Shown piece after piece: positions 2,400-38,803 of a stretch of DNA of 48,864 bases. Source of the DNA: Deltaproteobacteria bacterium RBG_16_49_23 (GTDB taxonomy: Bacteria > Desulfobacterota > BSN033 > UBA1163); the NCBI GenBank assembly GCA_001798855.1, contig MGQQ01000154.1, positions 1 through 48,864 of the forward strand. The letters are read 5' to 3'. A program made the position numbers and the translations under genes. Positions within the stretch are counted from its first letter, which is position 1. Each line of letters starts with the position of its first letter. Below the pieces are notes generated by a model. That model made no database searches. It had not been told where the DNA came from and worked only from the letters and a program-made list of their open reading frames with translations.

Positions 2400-2445
2400 A
2401 ACCCCACCCAGCCTCCCCTTAATTAAGGGGAGGTGTGGAGGGGTT
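2400..2445. repeat. 46-bp palindromic insert inside the DUF559 gene
   Basis: The ends are AACCCC and GGGGTT, and the centre is a perfect 22-bp palindrome at 2412-2433 (arm CCTCCCCTTAA). It introduces the TAA stop that ends the N-terminal fragment and shifts the frame. No target duplication is evident. Confidence 0.75.
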
Positions 2446-2690
2446 ATGAAATTTTTTCGCCAGTACAGCATCGGTCCTTATATTTCAGACTTTTACTGTC
2501 CGATCATGAAGCTAGCTGTAGAATTGGATGGTGGACAGCATAACCAGTGCGAGAATAAGGAGTATGATGCAGCCCGTTCAGAATATCTGAAAGCGAAGGG
2601 AATTGACGTAATACGGTTTTGGGATAATGAGGTATTGCTTGATATGCAAAGCGTCTTGGGTGCACTAACGCTGAAGATAACCCCTCCTAA

Positions 2691-2713
2691 CCTCCCCTTT
2701 AGCAAAGGGGAGG
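2691..2713. repeat. C-rich palindrome at the DUF559 3-prime end
   Basis: CCTCCCCTTT (2691-2700) and its complement (2704-2713) form a 10-bp stem with a 3-nt loop. It is the same repeat family as the insert at 2400 and supplies the last codons of the ORF. Confidence 0.7.
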
Positions 2714-2837
2714 GATAAAGACAGTACCCACTGAAATGCAGGAAGAATCAGAAATGGTAGAGATCCTGCGCTAACAAAGTGTTACAATTTTATAAATTTC
2801 AGACATCCTTTGGGTCTTTTTTAAGGAGTGAGCGCAA

Positions 2838-4697: not shown

Positions 4698-5154
4698 GGA
4701 GTCCATAATAGAAAAGACATTCTCTTTTGAAAATCTCCCCCTGCCTACCGGCAGGCAGGCTCGCCGCTCTTTGCCCTCCGGGCCAGAGGCCCTATGGGCC
4801 GGCGGCCAAAGAGGGGTAATTCCTCCCTTTGGAAAAGGGAGGGAAGGAGGGATTTATCTTTAATGTCTATACAATTATGAACTGACTAATAACTCATATC
4901 TAAATTGAGTGATTTATTGTTTTAAATGTAGTCGCAGCCTTTAGGTTGCGTGATTTTATCGGAAACGATTTCTCACCCAACGGGTGAGAGGAAAACGCAG
5001 GCTAAAGCCTGCGGCTACAGGTTCCTTTCAAAAGAATCGCTCAATTTAGGTAATATAAACGTGACGAATGATTTCGCTATTTTTTTTTGGGGAGTAGGAT
5101 TTATTCATAGGAGCCCCTTGATGGCATTCTTTAACTGAAGGGCCGAGATTTTTC
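4698..5154. other. Intergenic region packed with palindromic repeats
   Basis: No gene is recognised in these 457 bp. A composite C-rich repeat lies at about 4733-4859, made of nested inverted repeats around GCCTACCGGCAGGCAGGC. A second element at 4928-5018 has 23-bp imperfect terminal inverted repeats (19 of 23 match) related to GTAGCCGCAGGCTTTAGCC, and relatives recur near 29259 and 33511. A T-rich run at 5081-5090 and a weak GAAGGG precede the adaptor gene. No clear promoter is visible. Confidence 0.6.
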
Positions 5155-6597
5155 ATGAAGAAACTAACGTACGCTTTTCTCATCTCTGTACTCCTGGTCG
5201 GGGCTTTTCTGGTGGGCGCTTGGTATAACCAGCGGAAATCCATCCCTGCTGACCCCTCGAAATCGCATCCTGTTCAAGCCCATGAAGGAGCTAAACGTGA
5301 AACCTCCGGGGATGATATCACTCCGGGAACTGTTAAGATTACTCCCAAAAAGCAGCAGTTGATCGGCGTTCGTGTGGAGAAGGTGGTAAGGATGCCCCAG
5401 AAGCATGGAATGCGGACCATCGGAAGGGTGGCCGCAGACGAAAACCTTACCTACCGCGTGCTCGCAGGCTCGGAAGGCTGGGTATGGGATGTCCGGGAAA
5501 GCACCACGGGGAGCGTGGTTAAAAAGGACCAGCTGATGGCAACCGTGTACAATTACCAGTTCCTGACGAGACTTCAGCAATATCTTTATGCACTCGAATT
5601 CGAAGAGCGCAGACAGAAAGCCAGGGCACAGGCTCAGAGTCCGCAGTCCCCTGAAGCACAGTCTCAGACCGGGCAGCAACCGACCATGCCGAGTCCCATG
5701 CCCACGATGGTGCCGACGACGCCTGGCGGAGCAAGTATGACCGGGGGGGCCGTCTATACCGTCAGAGATCAATTGGAAGTGGCCAAACTCGAGCTTTACA
5801 GTCTGGGCGTAGGAGACTACCAGATCTAGGAGATCACACGGACTAAGAAACTGACGACAGAGATCGAGATCAGGTCTCCTGTTATGGGCATTGTGCTCAG
5901 CCGAAATGTCTCCCCCCAGCAGAAGTTCGACAGGAATGCAGAGCTTTTCCGGATCGCAGATCTGAGCAAAGTGTGGATCGTAACGGATGTCTATGAGCAT
6001 GAAGCACAATTCATCAAGCCTGGAATGACCGCAAAGGCCGCGCTTTTTCATCAAGGCAAAGTTTTCAATGCGAGGGTAACCGATGTCCTACCGGTGTTTG
6101 ATCCCGCCACGCGCACACTGAAGGTGCGTTTGGAGGCGGATAATCCCGGATACATCCTCCGTCCCGAAATGTTTGCCGATGTCGAGTTCCTGATCGCCTT
6201 TCCAAGCGCTGTCACTGTTTCGGCAGACGCAGTCCTCGATTCCGGGCTGAGGAAGACCGTTTTCGTCGATCTCGGCGATGGACTCTTTGAGCCTCGAGAG
6301 GTGGAGACCGGCTGGCGTTTCGGCAACCGTGTGGAGATTATGAAAGGACTCAGGCCTGGAGAGCGCATTGCTATGTCGAGCACATTTCTGATCGACTCCG
6401 AGAGCCGGCTGGAGCTGGCTGCCGCCGGGATAGTTGGAACCCTGAGCAAGGACCCGGTGTGCGGTGTGGATGTCTCCATCAATAAGGCGATGAAATACGG
6501 GAGAAAAAGCACTTACCAAGGAAAGACTTACTATTTCTCTTCCGATGAATGTAAGCAGAAATTCGATCAGAATCCCCATAATTATATAAAAGAGTAA
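5155..6597 (+). pseudogene. CusB-like RND efflux adaptor with C-terminal YHS domain, interrupted by an in-frame TAG
   Basis: This is the periplasmic membrane-fusion subunit of a Cu(I)/Ag(I)-type RND exporter. The N-terminal anchor (about 5-22) is followed by the adaptor entry sequence TPKKQQLIGVRVEKV, the first lipoyl half, a Pro/Gln/Met-rich insert (about 160-200) and the hairpin. Codon 225 is TAG (5827-5829). The same frame continues without any other change into RSPVMGIVLSRNVSP, IADLSKVWIVTDVYEHE and the rest of the beta-barrel and membrane-proximal domains, up to 6597. A single base change from GAG or CAG would restore a 480-codon gene. The last 48 or so residues (DPVCGVDVSINKAM, then YYFSSDECKQKF) are a YHS metal-binding domain. 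As read, it yields two ORFs (5155-5829 and 5884-6597). It may be a true pseudogene, a sequencing error or a suppressed stop. The pump gene follows 70 bp downstream. Confidence 0.85.
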
Positions 6598-6667
6598 GGG
6601 TTATTGAGTTTATTGGGTTTGTTGAGTTTATTGTGTTGAACCCAATGAACCCAAGTAACTCAAGTGT
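6598..6667. repeat. Inverted array of degenerate GTTTATTG units
   Basis: Repeats of the type TTGAGTTTATTGGGTTTG are followed by their inverted counterparts (AACCCAATGAACCCAAG, then AACTCAA). The array fills the whole gap between adaptor and pump genes and replaces an obvious ribosome binding site. Confidence 0.6.
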
Positions 6668-9600
6668 ATGATAAACCGCATCATCGATTTTTCAATCCAT
6701 AATAAGCTCATCGTCTTTACCCTCGTAGCCGCAGCCTGCCTGGGAGGGGTGTGGTCCATCAAAAACATGGCCCTTGACGCCGTTCCCGACATGGGCGACA
6801 CCCAGGTGATCGTTTTTTCCCGCTGGGACCGAAGTCCGGATATTATCGAAGACCAGGTCACATACCCGATTATCTCTGCCATGGTGGGCGCTCCCTCTGT
6901 CAAGACAGTCCGGGGTTTCTCTGATTTCGGCTATTCCTATGTTTACATTATCTTTGAGGATGGCACGGACATTTACTGGGCAAGGTCCCGCACTCTCGAG
7001 TACCTTTCCGCCGTGCTCTCCCGGCTTCCGGATGGCGTAAAGACAGAACTGGGCCCGGACGCAACGGGTTTAGGCTGGATTTTTCAATATGCTCTCGTGG
7101 ATGAAACGGGAAAACACAGTCTTGCGGAATTACGCTCCTACCAGGACTGGTACCTCCGTTATTACCTCAAGTCTGTGCCAGGAGTGGGAGAAGTTGCACC
7201 CATCGGCGGCTTTGGAAAGCAGTACCAGGTCAACGTGGACCCCAATCGCCTTCAAGCTTATGGGATCCCAATAGGCCGCGTCGTGGAAGCGGTGCGCCGC
7301 GGAAATAATGAAGTGGGAGGACGGCTCATTGAATTCGGCGGGACCGAGTACATGGTCCGAGGCCGGGGTTATGCACGATCCATTCGTGACTTTGAGGATA
7401 TTGTCCTCGATACGAGCGAGAGCGGAACGCCCATACGGATCAAGGATATCGGCCAGGTCGTTATGGGGCCGGACCTGCGGCGAGGGATTGCTGACCTCGA
7501 TGGAGAAGGAGAGGTCGTCTCCGGAATCGTGATTATGAGGCAGGGGCAGAATGCCCTGGATGTGATCAATCGGGTAAAGGCAAAGTTGAAGGAGATCGAG
7601 CCGGGGTTTCCTCCGGGCGTCAAGGTCGTTCCCGTCTACGACCGCTCCGACCTGATCCTTCGCTCCATCGAAAACCTGAAATCCACCCTCATTGAAATCA
7701 TCCTCACCGTTTCGATCATCGTTCTGCTCTTTCTCTGGCATATCCCGAGCGCCTTGATTCCGATCATTACCATTCCGGTTGCAGTCCTTCTTTCCTTCAT
7801 TCCGTTCCGCATGATGGGCATCACGGCCAACATCATGTCCCTCGGAGGGATTGCGATTGCGATCGGAGCGCTGGTCGATGCCGCCATCGTCGTAGTCGAG
7901 CAGACACACAAGAGATTGGAGCAATGGGAGAGAGCGGGCCGCAAGGAGGATTACCGGGAGGTTGTCATAGATGCCGTCAAACAGGTGGCCGGTCCAAGCT
8001 TCTTCGCCCTGCTGGTCATTGCCGTCTCGTTCCTCCCTGTTCTCGCCCTGGAGGGTCAGGAGGGGCGTCTTTTCAAGCCCCTTGCCTACACGAAGAACCT
8101 CTCCATGATCATTGCCGCGGTCCTTGCCATCACCCTCGATCCAGCCTTGCGAATCCTCCTCACCCACATGAAGAACTTCAACTTCAGACCGGACTGGTTG
8201 TGCGGGGCAACGAACGCTATTTTTGTAGGTCGGATTCACTCTGAGGACAAACACCGGGTCAGCCGTGTTTTGATCCGGCTTTATGAGCCAGCCATAGCCT
8301 GGTCTCTTAGAAAAAAGTGGTTGGTCTTCGCCGCGGCTCTCGGTCTGGTAGTTGCAACCGTCCCTGTCTATTTTAAGCTGGGGTCTGAATTTATGCCTCC
8401 CCTCGAAGAGGGTTCCATTCTCTACATGCCCACCACCATGCCGGGCATCTCCATTACCGAGGCCCAGAAGCTCCTTCAGGTCACGGATAGGATCATCATG
8501 CAGTTCCCTGAAGTGGACCGGGTATTGGGCAAGGCGGGCCGGGCTGATACATCCACAGACCCTGCTCCGCTCTCCATGATCGAGACGGTCATTACTCTCA
8601 AGCCCAGGTTGCAATGGCGAGAGGTGGATACCTGGTATTCTTCGTGGGCGCCGGAATGGGCCAAAGCGATTTTTCGCCGTATCACTCCGGATCATATTTC
8701 CCAGCAAGAGCTGATCAGTCAGATGGATGATGCTTTAAGCATCCCCGGCCTTTCCAATTCATGGACCATGCCAATCAAGGGCCGGTTCGAAATGCTGAGC
8801 ACGGGCTTGCGCACCCCGGTGGGCCTCAAAATCTCAGGCGCCGATCTCGATACCATCGAAGAGATCGGGGCGCGGATCGAGTCTCTTCTCCCCTCGGTAG
8901 GAGGCACCCGCAGCGTCTTCGCGGAGCGTACCGGCAGCGGTTATTTTCTTGATATCGAATGGAACCGGGAAACCCTGGCCCGCTATGGCTTGAGTGTTGA
9001 CGAGGCGCAGGAAGTCGTACAGAGGGCTATCGGAGGAGAAAATGTGACGACAACGGTTGAAGGACGGGAGCGATATGGGGTGAACATCCGCTATATGAGG
9101 GATTTCCGGGCTGACTTCAGAGCCCTGGGCCGTATCCTGGTCCCGGCCTTCGGGGGACAGAAACAGATCCCGCTCTCACAACTTGCGACTGTTAAGGTGG
9201 CAAGCGGTCCCTCCATGATCCGTAACGAAGACGGCCTGCTTGTGGGTTATGTCTATGTCGATATCTCCGGACGCGATGAGAACGGATATATCAAAGAGGC
9301 AGACAGGCTCCTCCGGGAAAAGGTAAAGCTCCCCCCGGGCTATGCCGTCTCCTGGAGCGGCCGGTACGAATCGATGGAGCGGATGAAGGAGCGGTTAATT
9401 ATCGTCGTTCCTCTTACTTTGTTGTTTATCCTGTTTCTCCTCTATCTTAACACACGTTCTCTCGTAAAGACGCTCATCGTCTTGCTCGCCGTGCCATTTT
9501 CCGCCATCGGCGCCTTCTGGTTCCTCTACCTGCTCGGATACAATATGAGCATCGGCGTCTGGGTCGGGTTGATTGCATTGCTTGGCGTGGATGCTGAAAC

Positions 9601-9928
9601 AGGGATCTTCATGCTTCTCTATCTCGACCTGGCCTATGAACAGGCAAAAAAGGAAGGACGCCTTCGAAGCCTGGCTGACCTCCAGGAGGCGATTCGCTAC
9701 GGAGCGGTCAAGCGGCTTCGGCCCAAGTTTATGACCGTGGCCACCACGTTTCTTGGACTCGTTCCCATCATGTGGTCCATGGGGGCGGGATCTGATGTGA
9801 TGAAGCGAATCGCAGCCCCGATGATAGGAGGAATTTTCACCTCTTTTCTTCTGGAGTTACTGGTTTATCCGGCGATCTACCAGACCTGGAAATGGAACAG
9901 CGAGGTAAAGAAGATTAGTGATCAGTAA
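6668..9928 (+). CDS. cusA: CusA-like heavy-metal RND efflux pump
   Basis: A 1086-residue inner-membrane proton/metal antiporter of the HME-RND family. Its length and motifs match the Cu(I)/Ag(I) branch. TM1 is followed by ALDAVPDMGDTQV. The TM4 signature AIAIGALVDAAIVVVEQTHK resembles the CusA type and lacks the extra acidic pattern of CzcA. The pore region carries GKAGRADTSTDPAPLSM and TMPIKGRFEMLSTGLRTP, whose methionines fall where CusA binds metal. A second six-helix bundle ends with GAGSDVMKRIAAPMIGG and FLLELLVYPAIY. It should form a trimer that passes periplasmic metal through the adaptor to an outer-membrane channel, but no TolC-like gene lies in the window. Its partner adaptor upstream is interrupted. 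Substrate (copper or silver) is inferred from family. Confidence 0.92.
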   Translation: MINRIIDFSIHNKLIVFTLVAAACLGGVWSIKNMALDAVPDMGDTQVIVFSRWDRSPDIIEDQVTYPIISAMVGAPSVKTVRGFSDFGYSYVYIIFEDGTDIYWARSRTLEYLSAVLSRLPDGVKTELGPDATGLGWIFQYALVDETGKHSLAELRSYQDWYLRYYLKSVPGVGEVAPIGGFGKQYQVNVDPNRLQAYGIPIGRVVEAVRRGNNEVGGRLIEFGGTEYMVRGRGYARSIRDFEDIVLDTSESGTPIRIKDIGQVVMGPDLRRGIADLDGEGEVVSGIVIMRQGQNALDVINRVKAKLKEIEPGFPPGVKVVPVYDRSDLILRSIENLKSTLIEIILTVSIIVLLFLWHIPSALIPIITIPVAVLLSFIPFRMMGITANIMSLGGIAIAIGALVDAAIVVVEQTHKRLEQWERAGRKEDYREVVIDAVKQVAGPSFFALLVIAVSFLPVLALEGQEGRLFKPLAYTKNLSMIIAAVLAITLDPALRILLTHMKNFNFRPDWLCGATNAIFVGRIHSEDKHRVSRVLIRLYEPAIAWSLRKKWLVFAAALGLVVATVPVYFKLGSEFMPPLEEGSILYMPTTMPGISITEAQKLLQVTDRIIMQFPEVDRVLGKAGRADTSTDPAPLSMIETVITLKPRLQWREVDTWYSSWAPEWAKAIFRRITPDHISQQELISQMDDALSIPGLSNSWTMPIKGRFEMLSTGLRTPVGLKISGADLDTIEEIGARIESLLPSVGGTRSVFAERTGSGYFLDIEWNRETLARYGLSVDEAQEVVQRAIGGENVTTTVEGRERYGVNIRYMRDFRADFRALGRILVPAFGGQKQIPLSQLATVKVASGPSMIRNEDGLLVGYVYVDISGRDENGYIKEADRLLREKVKLPPGYAVSWSGRYESMERMKERLIIVVPLTLLFILFLLYLNTRSLVKTLIVLLAVPFSAIGAFWFLYLLGYNMSIGVWVGLIALLGVDAETGIFMLLYLDLAYEQAKKEGRLRSLADLQEAIRYGAVKRLRPKFMTVATTFLGLVPIMWSMGAGSDVMKRIAAPMIGGIFTSFLLELLVYPAIYQTWKWNSEVKKISDQ

Positions 9929-10496: not shown

Positions 10497-11981
10497 ATGA
10501 AGGAAGTGAGCAGAAGGAAATTCATGAAGTATAGCCTGGGGAGCATGGCAGCGCTGGCTGTGGGCTCCGGACTGGATTGGATCAAGAACGAGGCCATTGC
10601 GGCGCCGCGCGTTAACACCCTTAATTTCCACATTACCGATGCAATAAAAGACATGGGAACTCATAACAGCATCAACACTGCCCAGTGCTATTTCTGGGTT
10701 TACAAAGAGGACCGCCTTCCTGCCGAAAGTCCGGGACCTACCATTTTCGCCACTGAGGGGGACGTGATCCGGATCAACATCACAAACGATCTGGATGAGC
10801 CCCATGCTTTTTTTATTCCGGGCATGTTCAACAGCGGGCCAATCGCTCCGGGTCAAACCGTGCGCAAATTCTTTACGGCAAAAAACGCCGGCCCTCATCT
10901 CTATTTCGACAACCTGAACCAGCCTGTCAACCGGGCGATGGGGCTCCATGGAGCCATCATTGTCCATCCCAAGGCTCCTGCGCCGGGACATAAATTTACT
11001 CCCTACGGCAAGCCAACGCCCGCTGTTCAGCAGCTTTTCGATGATTTTGGCTCGACGGCCTGGTGGCCGGGCCTCGCATGGGAGCAGGGCGATCCAGCTA
11101 CCAACACCCCGCCCTTCAGGAGGCATATCTGGTTGTTTCATCAGGCCAGCCCCACTCTCTTCGCCGCGGTGGGCAATTTTACACCGGGTCTCGATTTCCC
11201 TTCAGGCCAGTTCGTTCAGAGGTTCCTGCATGACGATTTCAGCCCTACGAATAATGAAAACATTCAAGGTGAAGTCGGGAGCGACATCCCCCGGTACTTC
11301 ACTATCTCCGGTCAGTCGGGTCATTTTTCACACAACACACCGTACATTAACCCCACCTTCCGTGTGGGAGAGCCGGCTGTCGTGCATATCCTGAATGCCG
11401 GGCTAATGACAATCTCCATGCATGTTCACGCCAACCACTTTTTCGTCACCTATTTCAATGGTGTGGTCCAGGAGAATCCCATCTGGGTCGATGTCTTCAA
11501 TGTTTATCCCATGGCCATTATCGACTACACTCTCCCATACATGAGGCCGCCCGATGTCCCCAATGTCCGCGGCATCGGAAGGGCGGACGCAGGCTTGCCG
11601 GCTGGCGTCAGCGGTGGGACAACCTGGCCCCCCAATGAGGAGATTCGGACTTTCATGCCGGGTCCTGCGCCCGCAGGAGTAACACCCTTCCAGATTGTAG
11701 GGAATCTCACAGATGGAGCCGGGAATTCTCTCGGCGTGCAACTGTCGCCTCTCTGCTACCCGGCCCATGACCATTCCGAGCCGACCCAGACATCCCAGGG
11801 CGGCAACTATAATATGGGATTGATCGCAGGAATGAACTTCATCGGAGACCGGAATACCCCGGGCGCCATGAACTTCCCGAATCAGCCGCTGATTCATGGA
11901 CCCGGCCCGGGAAGCCCGTTCGGGGTCGACGGCTTAATATTTCCAACAGCGGTACAGCCTCCCTGGTTTCAGGAAGGGTAA
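10497..11981 (+). CDS. Tat-exported multicopper-oxidase-like cupredoxin protein, module 1 subunit A
   Basis: A 494-residue two-cupredoxin protein. The N-terminus has a Tat signal (SRRKFMK at 5-11, then a hydrophobic stretch and AIAA cleavage region near 33-36). Domain 1 shows PGPTIFATEGD and LHGAIIVHP, but where oxidases carry the type-1 HCH segment it has YFDNLNQPVNRAMG. Domain 2 has HVHANH (309-314) and the HDH of CYPAHDHSEP (424-426) with QGGNYNMGL. So His clusters are present, but I see no canonical type-1 Cys-His site. A strong RBS (TAAGGAGG, 10483-10490) sets the start. Next to it, 83 bp on, is a second oxidase-like gene that has the complementary HWHG and HCH motifs. The same gene order occurs at 36270/37571. 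It probably folds in the cytoplasm and is exported by Tat together with that partner (inference). Confidence 0.85.
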   Translation: MKEVSRRKFMKYSLGSMAALAVGSGLDWIKNEAIAAPRVNTLNFHITDAIKDMGTHNSINTAQCYFWVYKEDRLPAESPGPTIFATEGDVIRINITNDLDEPHAFFIPGMFNSGPIAPGQTVRKFFTAKNAGPHLYFDNLNQPVNRAMGLHGAIIVHPKAPAPGHKFTPYGKPTPAVQQLFDDFGSTAWWPGLAWEQGDPATNTPPFRRHIWLFHQASPTLFAAVGNFTPGLDFPSGQFVQRFLHDDFSPTNNENIQGEVGSDIPRYFTISGQSGHFSHNTPYINPTFRVGEPAVVHILNAGLMTISMHVHANHFFVTYFNGVVQENPIWVDVFNVYPMAIIDYTLPYMRPPDVPNVRGIGRADAGLPAGVSGGTTWPPNEEIRTFMPGPAPAGVTPFQIVGNLTDGAGNSLGVQLSPLCYPAHDHSEPTQTSQGGNYNMGLIAGMNFIGDRNTPGAMNFPNQPLIHGPGPGSPFGVDGLIFPTAVQPPWFQEG

Positions 11982-12008
11982 TTTATAGACGATTCACCCC
12001 CTCCCTCA

Positions 12009-12031
12009 CCCTCCCCCCTCGAGGGGGAGGG
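12009..12031. repeat. C-rich palindrome between the two oxidase subunit genes
   Basis: A near-palindrome centred on CTCGAG (centre at 12020/12021), flanked more widely by CACCCC and GGGTGGGG-type sequence from about 11996 to 12042. It belongs to the dispersed C-rich family and could also act as an intercistronic mRNA stabiliser. Confidence 0.6.
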
Positions 12032-12064
12032 AGTGGGTGGGGGGAGAAAGAAAGGAGATAGAAT

Positions 12065-13504
12065 ATGTCGTTTACAAGTCCTGCTTTTCATATCGATCGT
12101 ATATCAGTAGTGGGAGAAGAAGCTGAATTTGTGAAGATGTTTGACCCGAGACCGGTAGGGGCAGGTCCCGCCCTGCCGGAGCGCATAGACGTTACGACCC
12201 TTCCTATTCAACTCGGGGCGAACCCCAGGGCCAACCCCGTTCCTGAGGTAATGCAGGCTCTCGGTCTGGGCATCCCGGGCAGGCCCCATACACGGGACAT
12301 GGATCTGCTCAACGGCCTGGCGCTCCCCACGTGGGACGGCGCAAAAATACTGAACTTCATGACCATAAGGGACAAAGACTTTGGCCTTGGGGGCACGTAT
12401 CCGGGTCCGATTATTCGGATCCCCAGGGGCGTGATCGTCCATGCAGACCTCTCTGGAAAGGGACCGCCGCCGCATACCATTCACTGGCACGGCCTCGAGC
12501 CAACTCCCATCAACGACGGCGTAGGCCACTGCTCCATGGAGATCGGAAGTTACACCTACCAGTTCCAGCCCAACTTCATAGGCTCATACTTCTACCACTG
12601 TCACAGAAACACGGTCCAACACTTTGAGTTCGGTCTTTTCAGCCTGCTTCTCATCGAGCCCCCCGACGCCTATTTCGCCTCCATCGGCGCTATCAATCCC
12701 GACGGGACAGTGACCCTAAACAGCATCCCTGTTGGCGCCTGTCTGGACGGGAGATTTCGAACTGCCGCAAATCTCCTCACTCTTCCTGCCAGCATCCAGG
12801 CTAAGTTTCCAGGGTTTATTGCGGGCGACCCCGTCTTTGGAGTCGCCGGACCCAACGACGTCGGAGTGGGCCATCCCCATGCCTTCACCGTCCCCTACGA
12901 CGTAGAGGTTCTCTGGGTTCCGGATGACCGGGACTCCCGGTGGAGCGATCTTGCATCGGATGCTTTTGCTACCTTCCCTGTACACGGCTTGACACCCGGC
13001 GCCGATGACGATTTTCAGGCAAATCCCGCGATTCAAAATTTCTTTGCCTTCAACGATTATCGCGCGGACTACTGGTTTATCACAGGCCTCCCTGTTCCGA
13101 CGCCTCCCGGTGGAACGGGTACGATTCCTCCGGGCATCGTCATCCCACCCGGTGGCAACAGCGGCAGGTCCGGATCCCAGGTGTCCGTGAACGCCCGGGT
13201 CGGGCAGACCATTTTCTTGCGTTGTCTGGATGCGGCTTACAATAACATCAGGGTCACCCTGCCTGTGGATGCGGTGATTACCGCCTGGGATGGAAGGGCC
13301 CTCGGAGTCCCGCCTTTCAACCGGTACAACCACGCCTATGTGGCTCCGGCCAACACCCCGATGACGTTCAGCGTCGCCCGTCGCTTCGATGCGCTGATCA
13401 AGGCGGAAACCACAATGAATACGTTCGCAAAAGTCGAGTTTATGGATACACGGGGCAATGCTGTAACGGCGACTGCCCTGATCCCGTTTCAGATTAGCCC
13501 ATAA
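12065..13504 (+). CDS. Multicopper-oxidase-like protein without signal peptide, module 1 subunit B
   Basis: A 479-residue cupredoxin protein that carries the classical copper motifs: HTIHWHG (H137, H140, H142), DGVGH (H155) and FYHCHRNTVQHFEFGL (H178, C179, H180, H186). These correspond to type-2/type-3 ligands and the type-1 Cys-His pair of multicopper oxidases. The C-terminal half is a second, less conserved beta-sandwich. The N-terminus (MSFTSPAFHIDRIS) has no hydrophobic signal and no twin arginine. Start: AAAGGAGA upstream of ATG 12065. The gene lies directly after the Tat-signalled subunit A, so co-export as a complex is the simple explanation for how copper-site protein reaches the periplasm. 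Its paralogue is at 37571-38803 (410 residues). The substrate is unknown. Confidence 0.85.
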   Translation: MSFTSPAFHIDRISVVGEEAEFVKMFDPRPVGAGPALPERIDVTTLPIQLGANPRANPVPEVMQALGLGIPGRPHTRDMDLLNGLALPTWDGAKILNFMTIRDKDFGLGGTYPGPIIRIPRGVIVHADLSGKGPPPHTIHWHGLEPTPINDGVGHCSMEIGSYTYQFQPNFIGSYFYHCHRNTVQHFEFGLFSLLLIEPPDAYFASIGAINPDGTVTLNSIPVGACLDGRFRTAANLLTLPASIQAKFPGFIAGDPVFGVAGPNDVGVGHPHAFTVPYDVEVLWVPDDRDSRWSDLASDAFATFPVHGLTPGADDDFQANPAIQNFFAFNDYRADYWFITGLPVPTPPGGTGTIPPGIVIPPGGNSGRSGSQVSVNARVGQTIFLRCLDAAYNNIRVTLPVDAVITAWDGRALGVPPFNRYNHAYVAPANTPMTFSVARRFDALIKAETTMNTFAKVEFMDTRGNAVTATALIPFQISP

Positions 13505-13526
13505 CTGCCAGGGAAGGAGATTGCCG

Positions 13527-15716
13527 ATGAAAAAGCGTTTCAGAAGTCTATCCGTTCTGCCTCTCATATTGATATGTCTCGTTCCCATGATCTCCCCGGA
13601 GACCTCAACGGCCTTCATCCCAACCGTCTGGCAATGGAGAGATCCTCTGCCCCAGGGAAATCCTTTGTCGAGCACAGCCTTTGGCAACGGCGCCTTTGTC
13701 GCGGTCGGGAGCGGGGGAATGGTTTTAACTTCTCCGAACGGAATCATCTGGACCCTGCAAACATCCGGAGTGACCGAGGATCTTTCGGAGGTCGTTTTTT
13801 CCAATGGTATCCTCGTTGCGGTAGGGAAGGCTGGCACGATTTTAACTTCTCCGGATGGGGCGGCCTGGACTTCCAGAATTTCCGGAGTCGTTGATGATCT
13901 CTCCGGAGTGGCCTTTGGCAATGGCAACTTTGTTGCAGTAGGCAGTCTCGGCGCGATCCTGACCTCTGCCGACGGGGTTGTCTGGGCCAACAGGAAACTC
14001 ACATTTAACTCTCCCCCTGCGCCTTCCCTCTTCGGAGTGGCTTTCGGAAACAATACGTTTGTCGCCGTTGGCCATGCCGCCATCCTGACCTCTACGGATG
14101 GCGTTACCTGGACCTCCCAACCGGTAGAACCCACGCTTGAGCTCACCGGAGTCTCTTTCGGGTCGGGAAGTTTTGTGGCTGTAGGGAAATTCGGGACCAT
14201 CTTAACCTCTGTGAATGGGATTACCTGGACTCCCCAAACCTCGCCAACTTCTCAAGATCTTTCCGCAGTAACCTTTAGCGGCGCCTCCTTCATCGCTGTT
14301 GGAGGTTCGGGAACCATCCTGGCCTCACCAAACGGGGTGACCTGGACATTACAGGCCTCGCCAACTCCCCAGGACCTATCCGGCGTAACCTTTGGCGGCT
14401 CTTTCGTTGCCGTTGGGGATGGGGGCACAATTTTGTTCTCTTCGGATGGAGTCAGGTGGATTGCGCGATCGTTCGAACCTGCAGAATGGTTATTTAGCGC
14501 CGCATCCGGCAACAATACCTTTGTCACGGTGGGCGCCTCAGGCACCATCCTTAAATCTTCGAGGGGGATCAGCTGGATTTCCCGGGAATCGGGAACGGTT
14601 GATGATCTCTTCGGAGTATTGTTCGGCAATAACAGTTTTGTCGCTGTTGGAGCATCGGGTGCGATCATAACCTCTCCGGATGGCGTGTCCTGGGCTTCGC
14701 AACAATCCGGCACTGCCAATGATCTCTTCGGAGTTGTCCGTGGTGAGGATCTTTTTTTGGCGGTAGGAGCGTTTGGCACGATCCTGACCTCTGCAAACGG
14801 CGTGTCCTGGGCTTCGCAACAATCCGGCACTGCCAATGATCTCTTCGGAGTTGTCCGTGGTGTGGATCTTTTTTTGGCGGTAGGAGCGTCTGGCACGATC
14901 CTGACCTCTGCAAACGGCGTCAACTGGACACCACAAAGTTCAGGAACCGATGATGACCTGTTTGGAGCCGCCTTTCAGGATGATACCTTCGTGGCTGTGG
15001 GAGCGTTTGGTGAAATGCTCACCTCTCCGGACGGAAGTAGCTGGACTTCCCAGAGATCAGGGCTCTCTGTTCATCACTTATTTGGGCTCGTTTCTGGAGG
15101 AGGTTTTTTCGGTGTTGGGATGGAGGGCACGATCCTGTCCAATGCACCTTTAACGCCTACCTATGGCGATATCTTACTAAATCATGCAGCTTTCAACCAC
15201 GTGGAGGCAATCTCGGAGGGAGGAATCGCAAAGGGGTGCTTGCCAGGTTTATTCTGTCCCGGTGACTTAGTGACAAGGGGACAGATGGCCGTCTTCCTCG
15301 CAAGAGCTTTGAACGGAGGCGCTGATCCTACCGGAGCCTGCGCAGTCGAGCCCTTTTCGGACATTCCTGTCGCCGATCCCTTCTGCTCCCATGTTCAGTT
15401 CGTTAAAGCGCTTGGAGTTGCCAGGGGATTTCCGGATGGAACGTTCAAACCGCTGGACAGTGTGAGCCGGGGGGAGATGGCCATCTTTCTTGCGAGGGCT
15501 CTAAACGGCGGCGCAGACCCTGCTGCCTCTTGCACGACACCGCCCTTTGCGGACATTCCGGCAAGCAACCCGTTTTGCCCTCATATCAGTTTTATTAAGA
15601 ATACAACTCTTCCTGTGACACTGGGCTTTGGAGACGTAACCTTCAGGCCGGCGGACACAATCATAAGAGCAGAGATGTCCCTTTTCCTCGGCCGGGCATT
15701 TCTGGGAATACCTTAG
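13527..15716 (+). CDS. SLH-anchored surface protein with 13 propeller-type repeats
   Basis: A secreted protein of 729 residues. The signal peptide covers about 1-32 (KKRFRSLSVLPLILICLV). About 13 repeats of roughly 39 residues follow, with consensus FVAVGxxGTILTSxDGVxWTxQ and a linking DLxGVxFGN; these look like blades of one or more beta-propellers of the BNR/YCF48 kind. The C-terminal 180 residues hold three SLH motifs (GDILLNHAAFNHVEAI with GCLPGLFCPGDLVTRGQMA, then FSDIPVADPFCSHV, then FADIPASNPFCPHI) and end RAFLGIP. SLH domains tether proteins to the cell envelope. ATG 13527 is preferred over TTG 13521 because GGGAAGGAGA (13511-13520) is 6 nt upstream. It follows the oxidase genes by 22 bp and is probably co-transcribed. 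The ligand of the repeats is unknown. Confidence 0.85.
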   Translation: MKKRFRSLSVLPLILICLVPMISPETSTAFIPTVWQWRDPLPQGNPLSSTAFGNGAFVAVGSGGMVLTSPNGIIWTLQTSGVTEDLSEVVFSNGILVAVGKAGTILTSPDGAAWTSRISGVVDDLSGVAFGNGNFVAVGSLGAILTSADGVVWANRKLTFNSPPAPSLFGVAFGNNTFVAVGHAAILTSTDGVTWTSQPVEPTLELTGVSFGSGSFVAVGKFGTILTSVNGITWTPQTSPTSQDLSAVTFSGASFIAVGGSGTILASPNGVTWTLQASPTPQDLSGVTFGGSFVAVGDGGTILFSSDGVRWIARSFEPAEWLFSAASGNNTFVTVGASGTILKSSRGISWISRESGTVDDLFGVLFGNNSFVAVGASGAIITSPDGVSWASQQSGTANDLFGVVRGEDLFLAVGAFGTILTSANGVSWASQQSGTANDLFGVVRGVDLFLAVGASGTILTSANGVNWTPQSSGTDDDLFGAAFQDDTFVAVGAFGEMLTSPDGSSWTSQRSGLSVHHLFGLVSGGGFFGVGMEGTILSNAPLTPTYGDILLNHAAFNHVEAISEGGIAKGCLPGLFCPGDLVTRGQMAVFLARALNGGADPTGACAVEPFSDIPVADPFCSHVQFVKALGVARGFPDGTFKPLDSVSRGEMAIFLARALNGGADPAASCTTPPFADIPASNPFCPHISFIKNTTLPVTLGFGDVTFRPADTIIRAEMSLFLGRAFLGIP
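14682..14915 (+). repeat. 117-bp in-frame tandem duplication of a propeller blade
   Basis: 14682-14798 and 14799-14915 differ at only two positions that I can see. Each unit is 39 codons, exactly one repeat of the protein, so the duplication is recent and adds one blade. Confidence 0.85.
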
Positions 15717-15740
15717 AAATTGAATTGACATAAACATGGG

Positions 15741-15818
15741 AAAATCTCCCCCCACCCCTCTTTGCCAAAGAGGGGGGATAATTCCTCCCTTAGGCAAAGG
15801 GAGGTTAGGAGGGATTTT
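15741..15818. repeat. C-rich compound palindrome
   Basis: Two hairpins (around CCTCTTTGCCAAAGAGG and CCTCCCTTAGGCAAAGGGAGG) lie between AAAATC and GATTTT ends. It sits between the propeller gene and the peroxidase gene and is related to the elements at 4733 and 19268. Confidence 0.6.
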
Positions 15819-15877
15819 ATAAATCGATGCTTTTCCTATTTTGAAACCATTTACAATTACCGCAAAAGGAGGAATTT

Positions 15878-18800
15878 ATGGATAGAAAGATTGACAAAAG
15901 ACTTTTATGGCTGATACGCTTTTCGACCATCTTTATAAGCATGGCTTTTATGATCGTGACGCTCTTTGCAGAGACAGCGCTGGCGCAGGCGCCCAACCCG
16001 AACGCGCCGCCTTCGCTTAAGGGGGTAAACGTTCCGGACCCGCCCGATCTCGGGGCTTTCGTCTTCGACCAGAGCGCCGCAATCCGCCTGGGCAAGGCTC
16101 TTTTCTGGGACATGCAGGTGGGAAGCGATGGCGTCACGGCCTGCGCAACCTGCCATTTTCATGCCGGAGCGGACAGCCGGGTTAAAAACCAGTTCAGTTC
16201 CGGCCTTCTCCATAGAATTTCAGGGAGCCCTCATATAAGCTCAACCACTTTTAGCCTTGGCGGTGCGAATGCGACACTCCAGCCCAGCCATTTCCCCTTC
16301 CATCGCCGGGCAGCGCCTGTTGATGTTCAGGCATCAGCCGTCCTTTTCGATACGGATGATGTCGCTTCTTCCCAGGGCGTCTTCAACACCCAATTTGTGG
16401 ACATCGTGCCCGGAAGCGCGGAAGATCTTTGTAATGACGTCCCCGATCCCGTATTCAACGTCGGAGGCATAAACACGCGGCGAGTGGAGCCGAGAAATAC
16501 ACCGACTGTCATTAACGCTGTCTTCAACTTTACCAATTTCTTAGACGGCCGGGCGAACAATCTCTTTAACGGCGTCAATCCCTTTGGCCCTGCAGATGTC
16601 AACGCCCGTATCCTAATAAATGATCCTGTCTTCGGAGTGAGGGCCGCTAAGATTGCCCTAAGTGAATCGAGTCTGGCTTCTCAAGCGGTGGGACCTCCGG
16701 GCAGCGACTTCGAGATGTCCTGCGCGAACCGTCCCTTTCCGAAAATCGGAAAGAAGATGCTCACCCTGACGCCTCTTGGAAAACAATTGGTCCATCCCAA
16801 TGACAGCGTCCTCGGTCCTTTTTCCAGGGCCCTGCTCGACAGCCAGGGACGGGCTGTGGGGACTCCGGGAATTGCGGCAAACTACGCTGACATGATCAGG
16901 GCGGCCTTCCAGCCGAGATACTGGAATTCCGACAGGGTCATCACGTTTCCCAATGGAGTGATGACCATCGGCAACCCCGGCATTCCGCAGAACACAAACG
17001 AATTCACCCAGATGGAGGCAAATTTTTCCCTCTTTTTCGGTCTTGCGATCCAGATGTATGAAGCGACCCTTGTCTCCGATGACACCCCTTTTGACCGCTT
17101 TCAGATAGGCGATGCTTCAGCAATGACTTTACAGCAGCAGAATGGACTGAATACCTTCCTTTCCGGCGGCACCCGGTGCAGCGCATGCCACGAGGGGACA
17201 TTATTCTCCGGCGCTGCTCCTGTTGTATTGCCAGGAGAGGATCCGGTGCTCTTGCTGCTTTTCCCCATACAGGGAGGTGAGGTTTTTTATGATGAAGGGT
17301 TTTATAACCTGGGCGTCACAAGGAATACTGCAATTTTTTTACCCAACGGAGATACAGCGACCGTTGAAACCTACGATATAGGCCGGGGTGGAACCGATCC
17401 CTTTGGCAACCCCCTATCATTTTCACGTCTTTCGATGCTTAAGAATCAGGGCCTTCTCGACCCCGAGTATTCTCCTTTCGTTCCTGACCTGCCCTGCCTG
17501 CCGCCCTGTCCTATTCAAAGGGTGTCCGTGGACGGAAGGTTTAAAGCGCCCGGCCTTCGCAACGTAGAGTTGACCGGCCCGTTTTTCCATAATGGGGGCG
17601 AAAGAACGTTGCTTGATGTGGTTAATTTCTATGCCAGGGGCGGAAACTTCCCTGTTGACAACATTCTCAACCTTGACCCTGAAATCGGAGAAATAGGCGG
17701 ATTGCAGGGCAATCAGATTGGTAAAGACGAGTTAGTGGCATTTTTTAGAGCCCTGACGGATCCGCGGGTTCGAAACGAGGGGGCTCCTTTCGATCATCCC
17801 CAGTTGTTCGTCCCGAACGGCCATCCTGGAAACAATGCGTCTCTCACGTGTACCGATGGAATAAAAGCTTGTGACGACCTTTTGGAGGTCCTCGCTGTGG
17901 GCGCTTCCGGCCGGGCTGCCATCGGACTGCCGCCTCTTCAGGGCTTCGGGGATTCGGAGCCCACCTTGACCGTCTTATTAGCCGGCAATGGAGCCGGAAC
18001 GGTCACCAGTGCGCCTAACGGTATTGATTGCGGTCTCAGCTGCACGGAGTCGTTTAACCTGGGCACGCTGGTCACATTGACGGCAACTCCCGCCGTAGGC
18101 AGTTTTTTCACAAGCTGGGCAGGATGCACCCCTGATGCGGTGAACCCCAACGTCTGCACGTTGACGATGAATGTGGCAACGAACGTCACGGCGACATTCA
18201 GCGTGCCCAATATTACAGTGACACCACTGGCTCACGATTTTGGCAGTATCAACGTCGGCAGCGTGGCCATCAAGACATTCACCGTGAACAATGCAATCCC
18301 GGTCAATCTTGTGATAGGGAGCGCCTCTGTAAATAGCTCGCCTGCTGGCGATTTTACGAAGGGTATCGACACCTGCTCAGGACAGATCATTCCTCCAGGC
18401 GGAACCTGTATCATCCAGGTCCGGTTCTCGACCATAACGACAATTGGTTCAACGGGAAGTCTCACCATCCCGTCCAATGACCCGGATCCCGCGCCGGTCA
18501 TCGGCGTGTTCGGTTTCGGCACGAATACTCAGGTGTTCAGCGATATCCTGGCGACTTCTCCTTTTGAAAACCATGTCAATTCGCTCTTTTACAACGGCAT
18601 CACCTCTGGATGCACCCCTGTGGATTTTTGTCCCCAGGACCTTGTGACCCGGGGAACAATGTCAGCCTTTATCATCAGGGCCCTGGAGGGAAATCCTGCG
18701 GGAGTCTGCGCTGTGCCTCCATTCACGGATGTGCCGGTGATCAATCAATTTTGCAAGCATATTGAAAGAATGAAGGCTCGAAATATCTCCCTCGGTTTTC

Positions 18801-19072
18801 CCGACGGCACTTTCCAGCCGCAGGGTAACGTGACCAGGGATCAGATGGCCGCTTTTATCATCAGGGCCCTCGAGGGAGATCCTGCGGGAGCTTGCGCTGA
18901 GCAGCCGTTCACGGATGTGCCGGTGTCCAGCCCATTTTGCAAACACATTGAGAGGATGAAGGCGTTGAATATCTCTCTCGGTTTCCCCGACGGCACTTTC
19001 CAGCCGCAGGGTAACGTGACCAGGGATCAGATGGCCGCTTTTCTTGCGAGGGCATTTCTGGGTCTCCCGTAG
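15878..19072 (+). CDS. Di-heme cytochrome c peroxidase-like protein anchored by SLH motifs
   Basis: A 1064-residue secreted fusion protein. A signal anchor (about 10-36, ending ALAQA) is followed by a MauG/CcpA-type di-heme region. The first heme motif is CATCH (89-93) after RLGKALFWDMQVGSDGVTAC. The second is CSACH (434-438), followed later by RNVELTGPFFHNGGERTL, the family C-terminal signature. From about 697 comes an InlB B-repeat-like domain (AGNGAGTVTSAP, CTESF, LTATP), then an ASPM-SPD-2-Hydin (ASH) beta-domain (about 779-885), then three SLH motifs ending RAFLGLP. Typical members are about 350 residues and soluble periplasmic, so the added 370-residue surface anchor is unusual. Start: AAAGGAGG (15866-15873). 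It is the fourth gene after the candidate sigma-54 promoter. It may reduce H2O2 or carry electrons from surface oxidation; the role is inferred. Confidence 0.9.
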   Translation: MDRKIDKRLLWLIRFSTIFISMAFMIVTLFAETALAQAPNPNAPPSLKGVNVPDPPDLGAFVFDQSAAIRLGKALFWDMQVGSDGVTACATCHFHAGADSRVKNQFSSGLLHRISGSPHISSTTFSLGGANATLQPSHFPFHRRAAPVDVQASAVLFDTDDVASSQGVFNTQFVDIVPGSAEDLCNDVPDPVFNVGGINTRRVEPRNTPTVINAVFNFTNFLDGRANNLFNGVNPFGPADVNARILINDPVFGVRAAKIALSESSLASQAVGPPGSDFEMSCANRPFPKIGKKMLTLTPLGKQLVHPNDSVLGPFSRALLDSQGRAVGTPGIAANYADMIRAAFQPRYWNSDRVITFPNGVMTIGNPGIPQNTNEFTQMEANFSLFFGLAIQMYEATLVSDDTPFDRFQIGDASAMTLQQQNGLNTFLSGGTRCSACHEGTLFSGAAPVVLPGEDPVLLLLFPIQGGEVFYDEGFYNLGVTRNTAIFLPNGDTATVETYDIGRGGTDPFGNPLSFSRLSMLKNQGLLDPEYSPFVPDLPCLPPCPIQRVSVDGRFKAPGLRNVELTGPFFHNGGERTLLDVVNFYARGGNFPVDNILNLDPEIGEIGGLQGNQIGKDELVAFFRALTDPRVRNEGAPFDHPQLFVPNGHPGNNASLTCTDGIKACDDLLEVLAVGASGRAAIGLPPLQGFGDSEPTLTVLLAGNGAGTVTSAPNGIDCGLSCTESFNLGTLVTLTATPAVGSFFTSWAGCTPDAVNPNVCTLTMNVATNVTATFSVPNITVTPLAHDFGSINVGSVAIKTFTVNNAIPVNLVIGSASVNSSPAGDFTKGIDTCSGQIIPPGGTCIIQVRFSTITTIGSTGSLTIPSNDPDPAPVIGVFGFGTNTQVFSDILATSPFENHVNSLFYNGITSGCTPVDFCPQDLVTRGTMSAFIIRALEGNPAGVCAVPPFTDVPVINQFCKHIERMKARNISLGFPDGTFQPQGNVTRDQMAAFIIRALEGDPAGACAEQPFTDVPVSSPFCKHIERMKALNISLGFPDGTFQPQGNVTRDQMAAFLARAFLGLP

Positions 19073-19421: not shown

Positions 19422-19517
19422 AAATTTCAAATATTTTGGGTTAGCTTTTTAGGCAGGAGTAAGATAAAATAACAATCAGTTGTGCCCAGCCATCCATTTA
19501 AGAGAGGAGGTCCTCAG

Positions 19518-24170: not shown

Positions 24171-24176
24171 TTATAT

Positions 24177-36269: not shown

Positions 36270-37475
36270 ATGAGAAGAATTAACAGACGGGAATTTATCA
36301 AGATGGGCCTCAGTAGTCTCTCGGTCATTGCTGTGGGCTCGCACATCAAGGTCCCGGGGATGTTCGGCAAGAACGAAGCTCTGGCCGCCGCCATATCGGT
36401 CAACCTCACCATCACCGATGCCCTGGTGGAGATGATAGACCTGACTCCGGTTTACCACTGGGTCTTTGACGATGGAGGAGGCCCCCGTTTCCCAGGGCCT
36501 CTGATCATTGTAGAAGAGGGCGATGACGTAACCTTCAATATCACCAACGCTCTCGATGAGCCTCATGCCGTCGCTATTTCGGGCACCAAGATTAACAGCG
36601 GCCTGGTCAATCCCGGCCAGCAGAGGCCCATGGTTTTCACAGCGCCCGCTGCCGGCACGTATATTTACTACGATCCTTTGAATGCGCCTGTGAACCGGGT
36701 TCTCGGCCTTCATGGAGTCCTGATCGTTCTTCCAAGGGGAACGCCAAACATCCCGTATAGCATTCCGACTCCCAATGTCCAGCAGCTTTTCGCCGATCTC
36801 GGAACGACAGCGCACTTCCCAGGGAACCCATGGAACCCCGCAAGAACGTTTGTCTGGGTCGTCCATCAGATCGATCCCTTGTTGAACGCACTTGCAGAGC
36901 CGGCGGGCGCTCCTCCGATTAATCGCATAAACTTTGTGAATCAGTTCCTGCCAAGATATTTCACCATCACCGGCAAGAGCGGCCACTTTGTCGTTGAAGA
37001 CGAGGAGGTTACTCCGAATGGCCGTGTCGGTCAACCGGCCCTTGTCAGGATTGTAAATACTGGTCTGGCTACCGAATCGCTCCATATTCACGCAAACCAC
37101 GTCTATCCTGTCGCAATTAACGGGGTAGTGCAGAGCAACGTCCATTACATAGACACGATGACATCCGGTCCCATGGACAGAATCGATTGGCTTGTCCCGT
37201 TTATCCGGCCGCCGGATATTCCTGTGAAACCGGGCAATCCGGGGGGGAATGCTCCATTCCAGAACCAACCCATCATCCGTTTCGATGCGTCTGATGAATT
37301 GGCTTTCATCACTACTCCTAACAACATACAGCTCAGTCCGATGGACTATCCTATGCACGATCATATGGAGCCATCTCAGACCGCGGCAGGCGGCAACTAC
37401 AACGCAGGGCTGCTCTCCCATATCATCTTTACCGGCGATATAGATGGGGTAGATTTCCCAAGACAGCCCGGATAA
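36270..37475 (+). CDS. Tat-exported multicopper-oxidase-like protein lacking Cys, module 2 subunit A
   Basis: A 401-residue two-cupredoxin protein, paralogous to 10497-11981. The Tat signal has NRREFIK (5-11), a hydrophobic stretch and an ALAA region near 37-40. Conserved features are PGPLIIVEEGD, DEPHA, YYDPLNAPVNRVLGLHGVLIV, HIHANH (272-277) and YPMHDHMEPSQTAAGGNYNAG (HDH 363-365). The protein contains no cysteine at all, so it cannot hold a type-1 blue-copper site alone. ATG 36270 with AAAGGAGG just upstream is chosen over TTG 36243. The signal-less partner with HWHG and HCH motifs follows 95 bp later. It may act as the Tat carrier and structural or His-rich half of an oxidase. Confidence 0.85.
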   Translation: MRRINRREFIKMGLSSLSVIAVGSHIKVPGMFGKNEALAAAISVNLTITDALVEMIDLTPVYHWVFDDGGGPRFPGPLIIVEEGDDVTFNITNALDEPHAVAISGTKINSGLVNPGQQRPMVFTAPAAGTYIYYDPLNAPVNRVLGLHGVLIVLPRGTPNIPYSIPTPNVQQLFADLGTTAHFPGNPWNPARTFVWVVHQIDPLLNALAEPAGAPPINRINFVNQFLPRYFTITGKSGHFVVEDEEVTPNGRVGQPALVRIVNTGLATESLHIHANHVYPVAINGVVQSNVHYIDTMTSGPMDRIDWLVPFIRPPDIPVKPGNPGGNAPFQNQPIIRFDASDELAFITTPNNIQLSPMDYPMHDHMEPSQTAAGGNYNAGLLSHIIFTGDIDGVDFPRQPG

Positions 37476-37570: not shown

Positions 37571-38803
37571 ATGGCTGGTTTGATTCAGCGTGAACGTTTG
37601 GTGCCGGGCAGTAGGCTTGCGAGGAAGTTTAACAAGTCTCTCTGGCCCGATATCGTGAACAGAGGCACCCCATTCGATGCAGCGCCGCCGAATAGGTTTC
37701 AGGACCGGGAACTTCTCGCAGGCATCAGGCTTCCTTTGCCCTATCCCAACCCAACGACGGGAGTCAATGATATCCAGATGTGGGTTCTTTTCGACCCAGC
37801 CTTACCAGCCACATTCCCGTCTCAATTAGTTCGCGTGGTGCAGGGGGAAATTGTCCATAGCCGCACATCCGGCCACTCAGGCTCGCACACTATCCACTGG
37901 CACGGCATCGAGCCCACGCCTGCCAATGACGGCGTTGGCCATGATTCCTTCGAAGTCGGTCAATATACCTACCAGTGGCATGCCTCGGAGCCCGGCTTCT
38001 ACTTTTATCATTGCCATAAAAACACGGTGCTCCATTTTGAAATGGGACTTTACGGCGCTCTGATCATAGATCCTCCGAAGCCGCCCGGAGCGCCGGGAGC
38101 AGATCCGAACCCGCCCTACCCATTAGGAGGTCCGGGGTATGTCAGCGCTAACACGCCGGGACTGCCTGGATTCGATAATGCGACAAAAACTCTCCGATAC
38201 GACGTTGAAAGGGCCTGGGTTTGCGACTCCATGGACTCAAGGTGGCATGAGCTGGGGGTGAACGAATCCATGTTCACACACGGAGCCGATCCGAACATCC
38301 CGAACGGCCAGGTCGGCAGTGGTTGGACCAGCACCGGCATCCTTAACGATTTCAGACCCGATATCTTCGTGATCACGGGCGTGCCGATTCCTGCAGGAGC
38401 CAATGGCCAGCCTGATGGAAATATCCCCATCACGCCTGCTGCTTTCCCCCTCAACCCGGATCTCGCCGCATCAGCAGGAGTTGTCTCCGCAACCGTTCCG
38501 AGGGGTCAGACCGTTCTGCTCCACGTTCTCAATGCCGATTATCTGATTCAAGAATACACACTCGGGATCGACGCGCTGGTCATCGGAGCAGATGGCCGCA
38601 ACTTTGGAACGACTGCGCACACGCAATACGCACAGCCCTTCACCATTCCGGCCAACAGGCCGTTCCGCCTGACGAGCGCCCGGAGATGGTCGATGATAGT
38701 GAGGCCGACAACGGCCGGCGTGATTCCGTTCAAGTGCGACTTTCTCAACTGGATCACTCAGGCAAGGGAAGGGACAGCCCGGACGCAGATCACAGTAATA
38801 TAA
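37571..38803 (+). CDS. Multicopper-oxidase-like protein without signal peptide, module 2 subunit B
   Basis: A 410-residue paralogue of 12065-13504. Copper motifs: HTIHWHG (H106, H109, H111), DGVGH (H124) and FYHCHKNTVLHFEMGL (H147, C148, H149, H155 with M158 nearby). The second half is a cupredoxin-like sandwich (VSATVPRGQTVLLHVLNADY). The N-terminus MAGLIQRERLVPGSRLARKF is polar and has no signal peptide. Start: AAAGGAG (37556-37562) before ATG 37571. As in module 1 it follows a Tat-signalled subunit A, so joint Tat export is the likely route. Only about 35 more residues at the N-terminus and some loops distinguish the longer module-1 form. Confidence 0.85.
   Translation: MAGLIQRERLVPGSRLARKFNKSLWPDIVNRGTPFDAAPPNRFQDRELLAGIRLPLPYPNPTTGVNDIQMWVLFDPALPATFPSQLVRVVQGEIVHSRTSGHSGSHTIHWHGIEPTPANDGVGHDSFEVGQYTYQWHASEPGFYFYHCHKNTVLHFEMGLYGALIIDPPKPPGAPGADPNPPYPLGGPGYVSANTPGLPGFDNATKTLRYDVERAWVCDSMDSRWHELGVNESMFTHGADPNIPNGQVGSGWTSTGILNDFRPDIFVITGVPIPAGANGQPDGNIPITPAAFPLNPDLAASAGVVSATVPRGQTVLLHVLNADYLIQEYTLGIDALVIGADGRNFGTTAHTQYAQPFTIPANRPFRLTSARRWSMIVRPTTAGVIPFKCDFLNWITQAREGTARTQITVI

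Follow-up and report, generated by a model that had tools for sequence, protein, structure and literature searches.

How can a multicopper oxidase (MCO) be exported when it is encoded by two adjacent genes and only one of the products carries an export signal, and where would its copper site be located? This question is raised by a 48,864-nucleotide stretch of DNA from Deltaproteobacteria bacterium RBG_16_49_23 (contig MGQQ01000154.1; the whole stretch is designated the window), which contains two copies of a gene pair encoding MCO-related proteins, subunits A and B. An initial annotation had correctly located both pairs (starts at 10497 and 12065 for pair 1, at 36270 and 37571 for pair 2) and had proposed that A and B form a heterodimer that is exported by the twin-arginine translocation (Tat) system. 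Judged from residue conservation and a structural model, A and B are, with a probability of roughly 0.72, the two subunits of one obligate hetero-oligomeric MCO, whose trinuclear copper cluster would be located at the A-B interface and whose B subunit would be exported via the Tat signal of A.

Distribution of copper-type residues between A and B

The products of the two genes comprise 410–494 residues in the window, and all four proteins score above the Pfam cut-off for PF07732 (Cu-oxidase). A and B are separated by 83 bases in pair 1 (stop of A to start of B) and by 95 bases in pair 2; a third pair is located elsewhere in the same genome. A scan of 84,980 species genomes with a B profile yielded 71 loci. 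After addition of L017, L038, L039 and the window, and removal of two duplicates (L072 and L079, the same records as L038 and L039), the set contained 77 B-type reading frames. In 68 of these, A adjoins B upstream on the same strand. The 49 pairs whose B scores above 300 are termed the main clade; the other 19 pairs are termed distant and include the second pair of L097, whose low score results from truncation by the contig. The analysis of domains and His columns and the comparison of trees were restricted to 45 complete pairs, without L077, L084 and the two loci with an incomplete A, L042 and L045.

In the main clade, A residues H309 and H311 are invariant in the 48 rows that carry a letter (one row is gapped), and H424, D425 and H426 are found in all 49 pairs. 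B residues H137, H140, H142, H178, C179, H180 and H186 are each conserved in 49 of 49, as is Leu 191 at the axial position; a Leu at the type-1 axial position would suit a high-potential site. The profile of A domain 2 had its top match in the PDB with the second domain of the two-domain laccase 2zwn (E 1.1e-4), and the HVHANH motif (309–314) was aligned onto the second-domain HxH. For B domain 1, the alignment was with the first domains of 2zwn and 3g5w and covered the HTIHWHG and YHCH motifs; we take both structures to be type C two-domain MCOs. The four cluster HxH motifs and the type-1 Cys/His set are thus complete in A plus B together and incomplete in either protein alone. B has the first-domain set of a type C enzyme only and A the second-domain set only, such that neither chain unites a type-1 site with both cluster halves. 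The three-domain family of CueO and CopA does not match either: the best score for the NCBIfam model copper_res_A was 44.1 bits (copy-2 B) versus 478.95. CueO, CopA and CutO are single chains with a full ligand set.

Homology and general knowledge of the family lead to the following putative assignment. A domain 2 would provide His 309, 311, 424 and 426, and B domain 1 would provide His 140, 142, 178 and 180, for one trinuclear cluster at the A-B interface. The type-1 copper of B domain 1 (H137, C179, H186, axial Leu 191) would accept electrons from the substrate. A domain 1 would be a relative of B domain 1 that has lost its sites. The initial annotation had noted the HWHG and HCH motifs of B, and had described His clusters without a canonical type-1 site in A. 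The motifs are present at B residues 137–143 and 178–186, and the type-1 site is missing from A, whose only Cys residues are at positions 64 and 420 in copy 1; copy 2 has none, as stated. The His residues of A exist as well, but they are not merely scattered: domain 2 holds two HxH motifs typical of half a trinuclear cluster. What had been missed is that this putative half on A domain 2 complements the type-1 site and the other half on B domain 1.

Outside these two domains, His residues are poorly conserved in the 45 complete pairs. Only H103 and H151 reach at least 90% His in A domain 1, and no column of the second part of B does so. HxH motifs occur in A domain 1 of four and in the second part of B of nine of these pairs, and are not conserved. 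The first domains of A and B are homologous (hhalign 94%, E 1.7e-8), and a profile comparison of the 45 pairs detected no sequence relation between A domain 2 and the second part of B. Duplication is therefore evident for the first domains and merely suspected for the second.

One could alternatively assume that A is a copper carrier or helper and not a catalytic half, and that B forms a homo-oligomeric site of its own. A precedent is known from Streptomyces, where the Tat-tagged helper MelC1 is required to load the signal-less copper oxidase MelC2 with copper (PMC2758597), and main-clade A does lack a type-1 Cys. However, a homo-oligomer of B would be short of half a cluster, because its second part contains no conserved second HxH set, and A is itself an MCO homologue with four invariant cluster-type His residues. 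A role of A as a mere helper is thus unlikely.

Position 425 of A is occupied by Cys in 15, by Asp in three and by a gap in one of the 19 distant pairs, mostly within a YPMHCH motif. Distant A proteins may therefore have retained their own type-1 site. In ten pairs from Arthrobacter and Paeniglutamicibacter (L089, L090, L093, L094, L096, L099–L103), A has kept the Cys in the second-domain HCH motif, and B has some 200–280 residues, often charged or of low complexity, before the copper domain.

Pairing of A and B and their predicted contact

The initial annotation had suggested a genome search for A and B as neighbours. A was found directly upstream of 49 of the 51 strong B homologues, and the other two, L050 and L062, begin at bases 2 and 378 of their contigs. 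Altogether, nine B frames have no A: these two, L092 (contig start), L077 (the second fragment of an interrupted B) and five weak matches of at most 72.2 bits. Among 395 genomes drawn evenly from the phylum, at E 1e-20 B was detected in 12 and A in 11, all of which belong to the 12; in the twelfth, A is present and cut by the contig start. The upstream position of A and the co-occurrence in the same 12 of 395 genomes rule out a chance adjacency. The trees of A and B deduced from the 45 complete pairs correlate with r 0.788, compared to at most 0.62 in 1000 permutations, and have 20 of 42 splits in common.

Main-clade pairs are found in records labelled as Deltaproteobacteria, Desulfuromonadales, Chloroflexi, Nitrospirae, Phycisphaerae, Poribacteria, a Bacillus and the archaeon Methanoperedens. 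Several named strains carry pairs and thus make direct testing possible (Geomonas silvestris, G. limicola, Citrifermentans bremense, Minicystis rosea and Bacillus sp. OV166). None of the frames from the B scan matches both profiles well (weaker score at most 39.2 bits). Tandem pairs, two on one contig, were observed in L058 (2486–10457) and L097 (5011–9809). In viral contigs, 25 stretches fit a search pattern and none codes for a relative. Two plasmid records, both from Indioceanicola, gave three places and no match spanning 80% of B. On one Indioceanicola plasmid (L123, 2805–5044), a gene annotated as "hypothetical protein" directly precedes one annotated as "multicopper oxidase domain-containing protein", which is possibly a further A-B pair.

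A joint AlphaFold model was computed for the pair of L043 by reading through the natural A-stop-B stretch, on the basis of an alignment of 66 rows (11 paired, 28 A-only, 27 B-only). Rows left out of the folding were L017, L040, L057, L059, L067, L074, L084 and the second L058 copy, as well as L077 for B. The tethered model of this partner pair, judged by its scores and not by its coordinates, has a predicted local distance difference test (pLDDT) value of 85.4 and a predicted template modelling (pTM) score of 0.89. By our reasoning, two good but mutually unplaced halves would give a pTM of hardly more than 0.5; the model is therefore confident about the placement of A and B. Its best fold match in the PDB is MnxG (9bxa_A, E 1.5e-23, TMq 0.44). 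The root-mean-square deviation (rmsd) of 14.8 Å indicates that the two are not alike in overall structure.

These data also bear on a further alternative, namely that A and B are neighbours without partnership, B acting as a copper protein in the cytoplasm and A, separately, as one in the periplasm. Such an arrangement would agree with the lack of a recognised signal in B, and the copper oxidase MelD2 does remain inside the cell (PMC2758597). It is very improbable, since neither protein would hold a full trinuclear set although all eight His residues are invariant in the main clade; all strong B except those close to a contig end have A upstream; and some B carry domains of exported proteins, as described below.

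Export signals

The N-terminus of copy-1 A, MKEVSRRKFMKYSLGSMAALAVGS, contains a twin arginine followed by a hydrophobic stretch, in agreement with the Tat signal of the initial annotation. Taken alone, this protein scores below the thresholds of Tat models (TIGR01409, 16.3 versus 16.7 bits; PF10518, 16.5 versus 22.7), and for full-length copy-2 A no match to a Tat model was obtained up to E 1. The signals of main-clade A were counted without L042 and L045, where A is incomplete. In all 47 complete A proteins, RR[DENQKG]F is found near the start, the 12-residue mean of the following hydrophobic stretch is 1.12–2.29, and TIGR01409 recognises 42 of the 47 N-termini at E up to 1. In contrast, none of the 49 main-clade B N-termini matches any NCBIfam model, and the first 45 residues are not signal-like (12-residue hydropathy mean at most 1.31, median 0.50). 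The first five aligned pairs all combine a twin-arginine start of A with a short, non-signal M(S/A)... start of B. By eye, the ten B proteins of further pairs from the phylum scan have no signal either, and all seven A whose start is present have RR. The main clade thus displays the pattern of a Tat hitchhiker, with a Tat signal on one partner, none on the other, and both encoded together.

The start of copy-1 B is secure: AAAGGAGA precedes the ATG, and an in-frame stop is located two codons upstream. A Shine-Dalgarno-like pattern, sought permissively as four bases, precedes the conserved Met in 47 of the 49 main-clade B genes. A missed upstream start that adds a signal to B is unlikely, as 39 of the 49 starts are at most 15 codons from an upstream stop or the edge of the reading frame and the other ten are at the same aligned Met. 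The genome contains two TatC genes. Furthermore, B is extended at the C-terminus by more than 50 residues in 20 of the 49 main-clade pairs, and CarboxypepD_reg scores over the cut-off in the extensions of three of four scanned B. Since such domains are common on exported proteins, they suggest that B ends up outside the cytoplasm. The ends of Geomonas B look dockerin-like by eye; no model reported a dockerin.

Given that B has no signal, A and B would fold together in the cytoplasm, and one complex would cross the membrane through Tat on the signal of A. Indirectly, the heterodimer is well supported by complementary invariant residues, adjacency, co-occurrence and the joint model. Its joint export is supported in the same manner by the distribution of signals, the TatC genes and the C-terminal domains of some B. 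No evidence emerged for a loading with copper ahead of export, which the initial annotation had considered possible.

Several observations weigh against joint assembly and export. The nearest neighbour is common to the trees of A and B in just 27 of 45 pairs, and the agreement of the trees may stem from shared descent alone. The intergenic stop was read as a residue in the L043 model, such that A and B were tethered. Folded alone, the A2-B1 piece gave lower scores (pLDDT 71.9, pTM 0.73), and its 50 listed PDB matches (MnxG with TMq 0.35 and rmsd 14.9 Å, others with 0.16–0.22) do not settle the arrangement. The HDH motif of A (424–426) was also placed on the HDH of 2zwn; with only -0.5 bits for the segment, this is no more than suggestive. 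The second part of B was called cupredoxin-like from predicted strands alone, without a sequence match to A domain 2. Finally, A has no twin arginine in the ten Arthrobacter and Paeniglutamicibacter pairs, and Sec-like signals are present on both A and B in the flavobacterial loci L105 and L106. Homologues of B with their own signals, which the initial annotation had regarded as contradicting its proposal, thus exist in two remote pairs, where A has a signal too, and not among the 49 main-clade B.

The B protein of L105, the one flavobacterial B scanned, has in addition a tail of the type IX secretion system, which together with the signals suggests that this B-type protein works outside the cytoplasm. 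Assembly outside is thus possible in remote kin, and along with the missing twin arginine in the ten A of Arthrobacter and Paeniglutamicibacter this would fit a shared-cluster oxidase whose B leaves by another route (non-classical export or vesicles) and meets A outside. Such a separate export is improbable, because main-clade B starts are neither recognised by NCBIfam models nor signal-like, and because every complete main-clade A has kept the twin arginine, Tat being a route for folded cargo.

Gene neighbourhood and likely function

Table 1. Features of the two A-B pairs and of the genes upstream of pair 1.
Feature	Position	Strand	Description	Model score
CusB-like adaptor	5155..6597	+	contains YHS domain; gene interrupted by in-frame stop at 5827-5829	
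Heavy-metal RND pump	6668..9928	+	CusA/CzcA family; directly upstream of pair 1	TIGR00914, 1071.5 bits (cut-off 701.45)
Subunit A, copy 1	10497..11981	+	494 aa, ATG start; degenerate cupredoxin domain 1, domain 2 with half of proposed trinuclear site	
Twin-arginine signal of A, copy 1	10497..10604	+	SRRKFMK...; end of signal estimated	
A residues 309-314	11421..11438	+	HVHANH; H309 and H311 proposed cluster ligands, H314 invariant	
A residues 424-426	11766..11774	+	HDH; another two proposed ligands of the cluster; the Asp position is mostly Cys in distant pairs	
Subunit B, copy 1	12065..13504	+	479 aa, ATG start; domain 1 with proposed type-1 site and other cluster half, second part without conserved His; no recognised export signal	
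B residues 137-143	12473..12493	+	HTIHWHG; proposed type-1 His and two cluster ligands	
B residues 178-186	12596..12622	+	HCHRNTVQH; proposed, in order, cluster His, type-1 Cys, cluster His, type-1 His	
Subunit A, copy 2	36270..37475	+	ATG start; no Cys; RREFIK signal; HIHANH and HDH retained	
Subunit B, copy 2	37571..38803	+	no recognised export signal	

The positions of both pairs and of the upstream genes are listed in Table 1; for copy-2 A, an alternative upstream TTG at 36243 is also open. Pair 1 is preceded by the pump and the adaptor, and the C144 pair by relatives of both. Neighbour clustering of 47 sources, with flanks of uneven length, found the adaptor cluster in nine and the pump cluster in six. 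Downstream of pair 1 are genes for an S-layer-domain protein and for a di-haem protein of the CCP_MauG type. In three of the 47 sources a giant oxidase adjoins the pair, and the two that were scanned match the MnxG model below the cut-off. Because of these neighbours, an extracytoplasmic metal oxidase is favoured as the function of A-B. Outside the cytoplasm, the pair would oxidise a metal ion or another one-electron donor and reduce oxygen. Cu(I) would be the likeliest donor for copy 1, which is a guess from the pump context.

The adaptor gene has an open homologue in the C144 locus (L017, 15421–16929), and its own in-frame stop could reflect true decay or a faulty assembly. Two scanned proteins after pair 1 (13521–15716 and 15878–19072) are S-layer-homology proteins, one of which is fused to the di-haem CCP_MauG domain, and clustering identified several relatives around pair 2 (30881–40253). 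A 1114-residue protein with many WD40 repeats (19482–22826) is encoded between the pairs, ahead of a second CzcB/CzcA-type pump (22842–27302). In a genome of the same genus (L039), a pair is located beside a 1807-residue MnxG-like oxidase (2409–7832); further off (14545–17501) are, as read by eye, a multihaem cytochrome and a putative outer-membrane barrel.

Comparison with known systems

For the proposed export route, precedents exist. The signal-less catalytic subunits of the NiFe hydrogenase HybOC and of PaoABC hitchhike through Tat (PMC4273604); these enzymes and their cofactors are unrelated to A-B. A closer case is the Streptomyces tyrosinase MelC2, a signal-less copper oxidase that is exported by Tat on the tagged MelC1 encoded in the same operon (PMC2758597). 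In contrast to A-B, it is a tyrosinase and not an MCO, and MelC1 serves as a helper without contributing half of the active site. Among MCOs, CueO is a Tat substrate (PMC4148689), and CueO, CopA and CutO are linked to copper detoxification (PMC8456105). The statement of the initial annotation that no oxidase of this kind has been described thus holds for MCOs in the open-access literature searched and has to be qualified with respect to MelC2.

The Mnx complex (MnxE, MnxF, MnxG) is likewise an MCO with partner proteins. It needs the partner gene products, and the oxidase is encoded by mnxG only (PMC5622069); as far as this source states, MnxE and MnxF are not halves of the MnxG copper site. 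The cluster of two-domain oxidases is built from residues of two protomers, and type C enzymes have their type-1 site in the N-terminal domain (PMC13151041). The first domain of the type C enzymes corresponds in alignments to B domain 1 and the second to A domain 2. The protomers, however, stem from one gene, whereas the halves considered here are on two gene products, each without the complementary sites. In the bacterial six-domain oxidases compared in PMC3600357, the cluster is located between domains 2 and 3 and the type-1 site in domain 2. In the order A1-A2-B1-B2, this is where A2 and B1 would meet; unlike A-B, MnxG is one six-domain chain, and the type-1 site of A-B would be in the third domain instead of the second.

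Tat hitchhiking and clusters shared between protomers are thus already known. Their combination on two gene products of an MCO, with cluster halves on both and a signal on one, was not found described in searches of the open-access articles of PMC, which is no proof of absence. With odds slightly better than even, A-B would be the first MCO whose oxygen-reducing trinuclear cluster is formed by two individually incomplete gene products that are joined by Tat hitchhiking. If this is true, a signal on one subunit and half an active site on each would turn export into proofreading, such that only the assembled oxidase leaves the cell. A-B would then represent a duplicated two-domain oxidase whose sites were split by complementary loss, and a living, testable intermediate on the proposed route (scheme in PMC3600357) from homo-oligomeric two-domain to single-chain six-domain oxidases.

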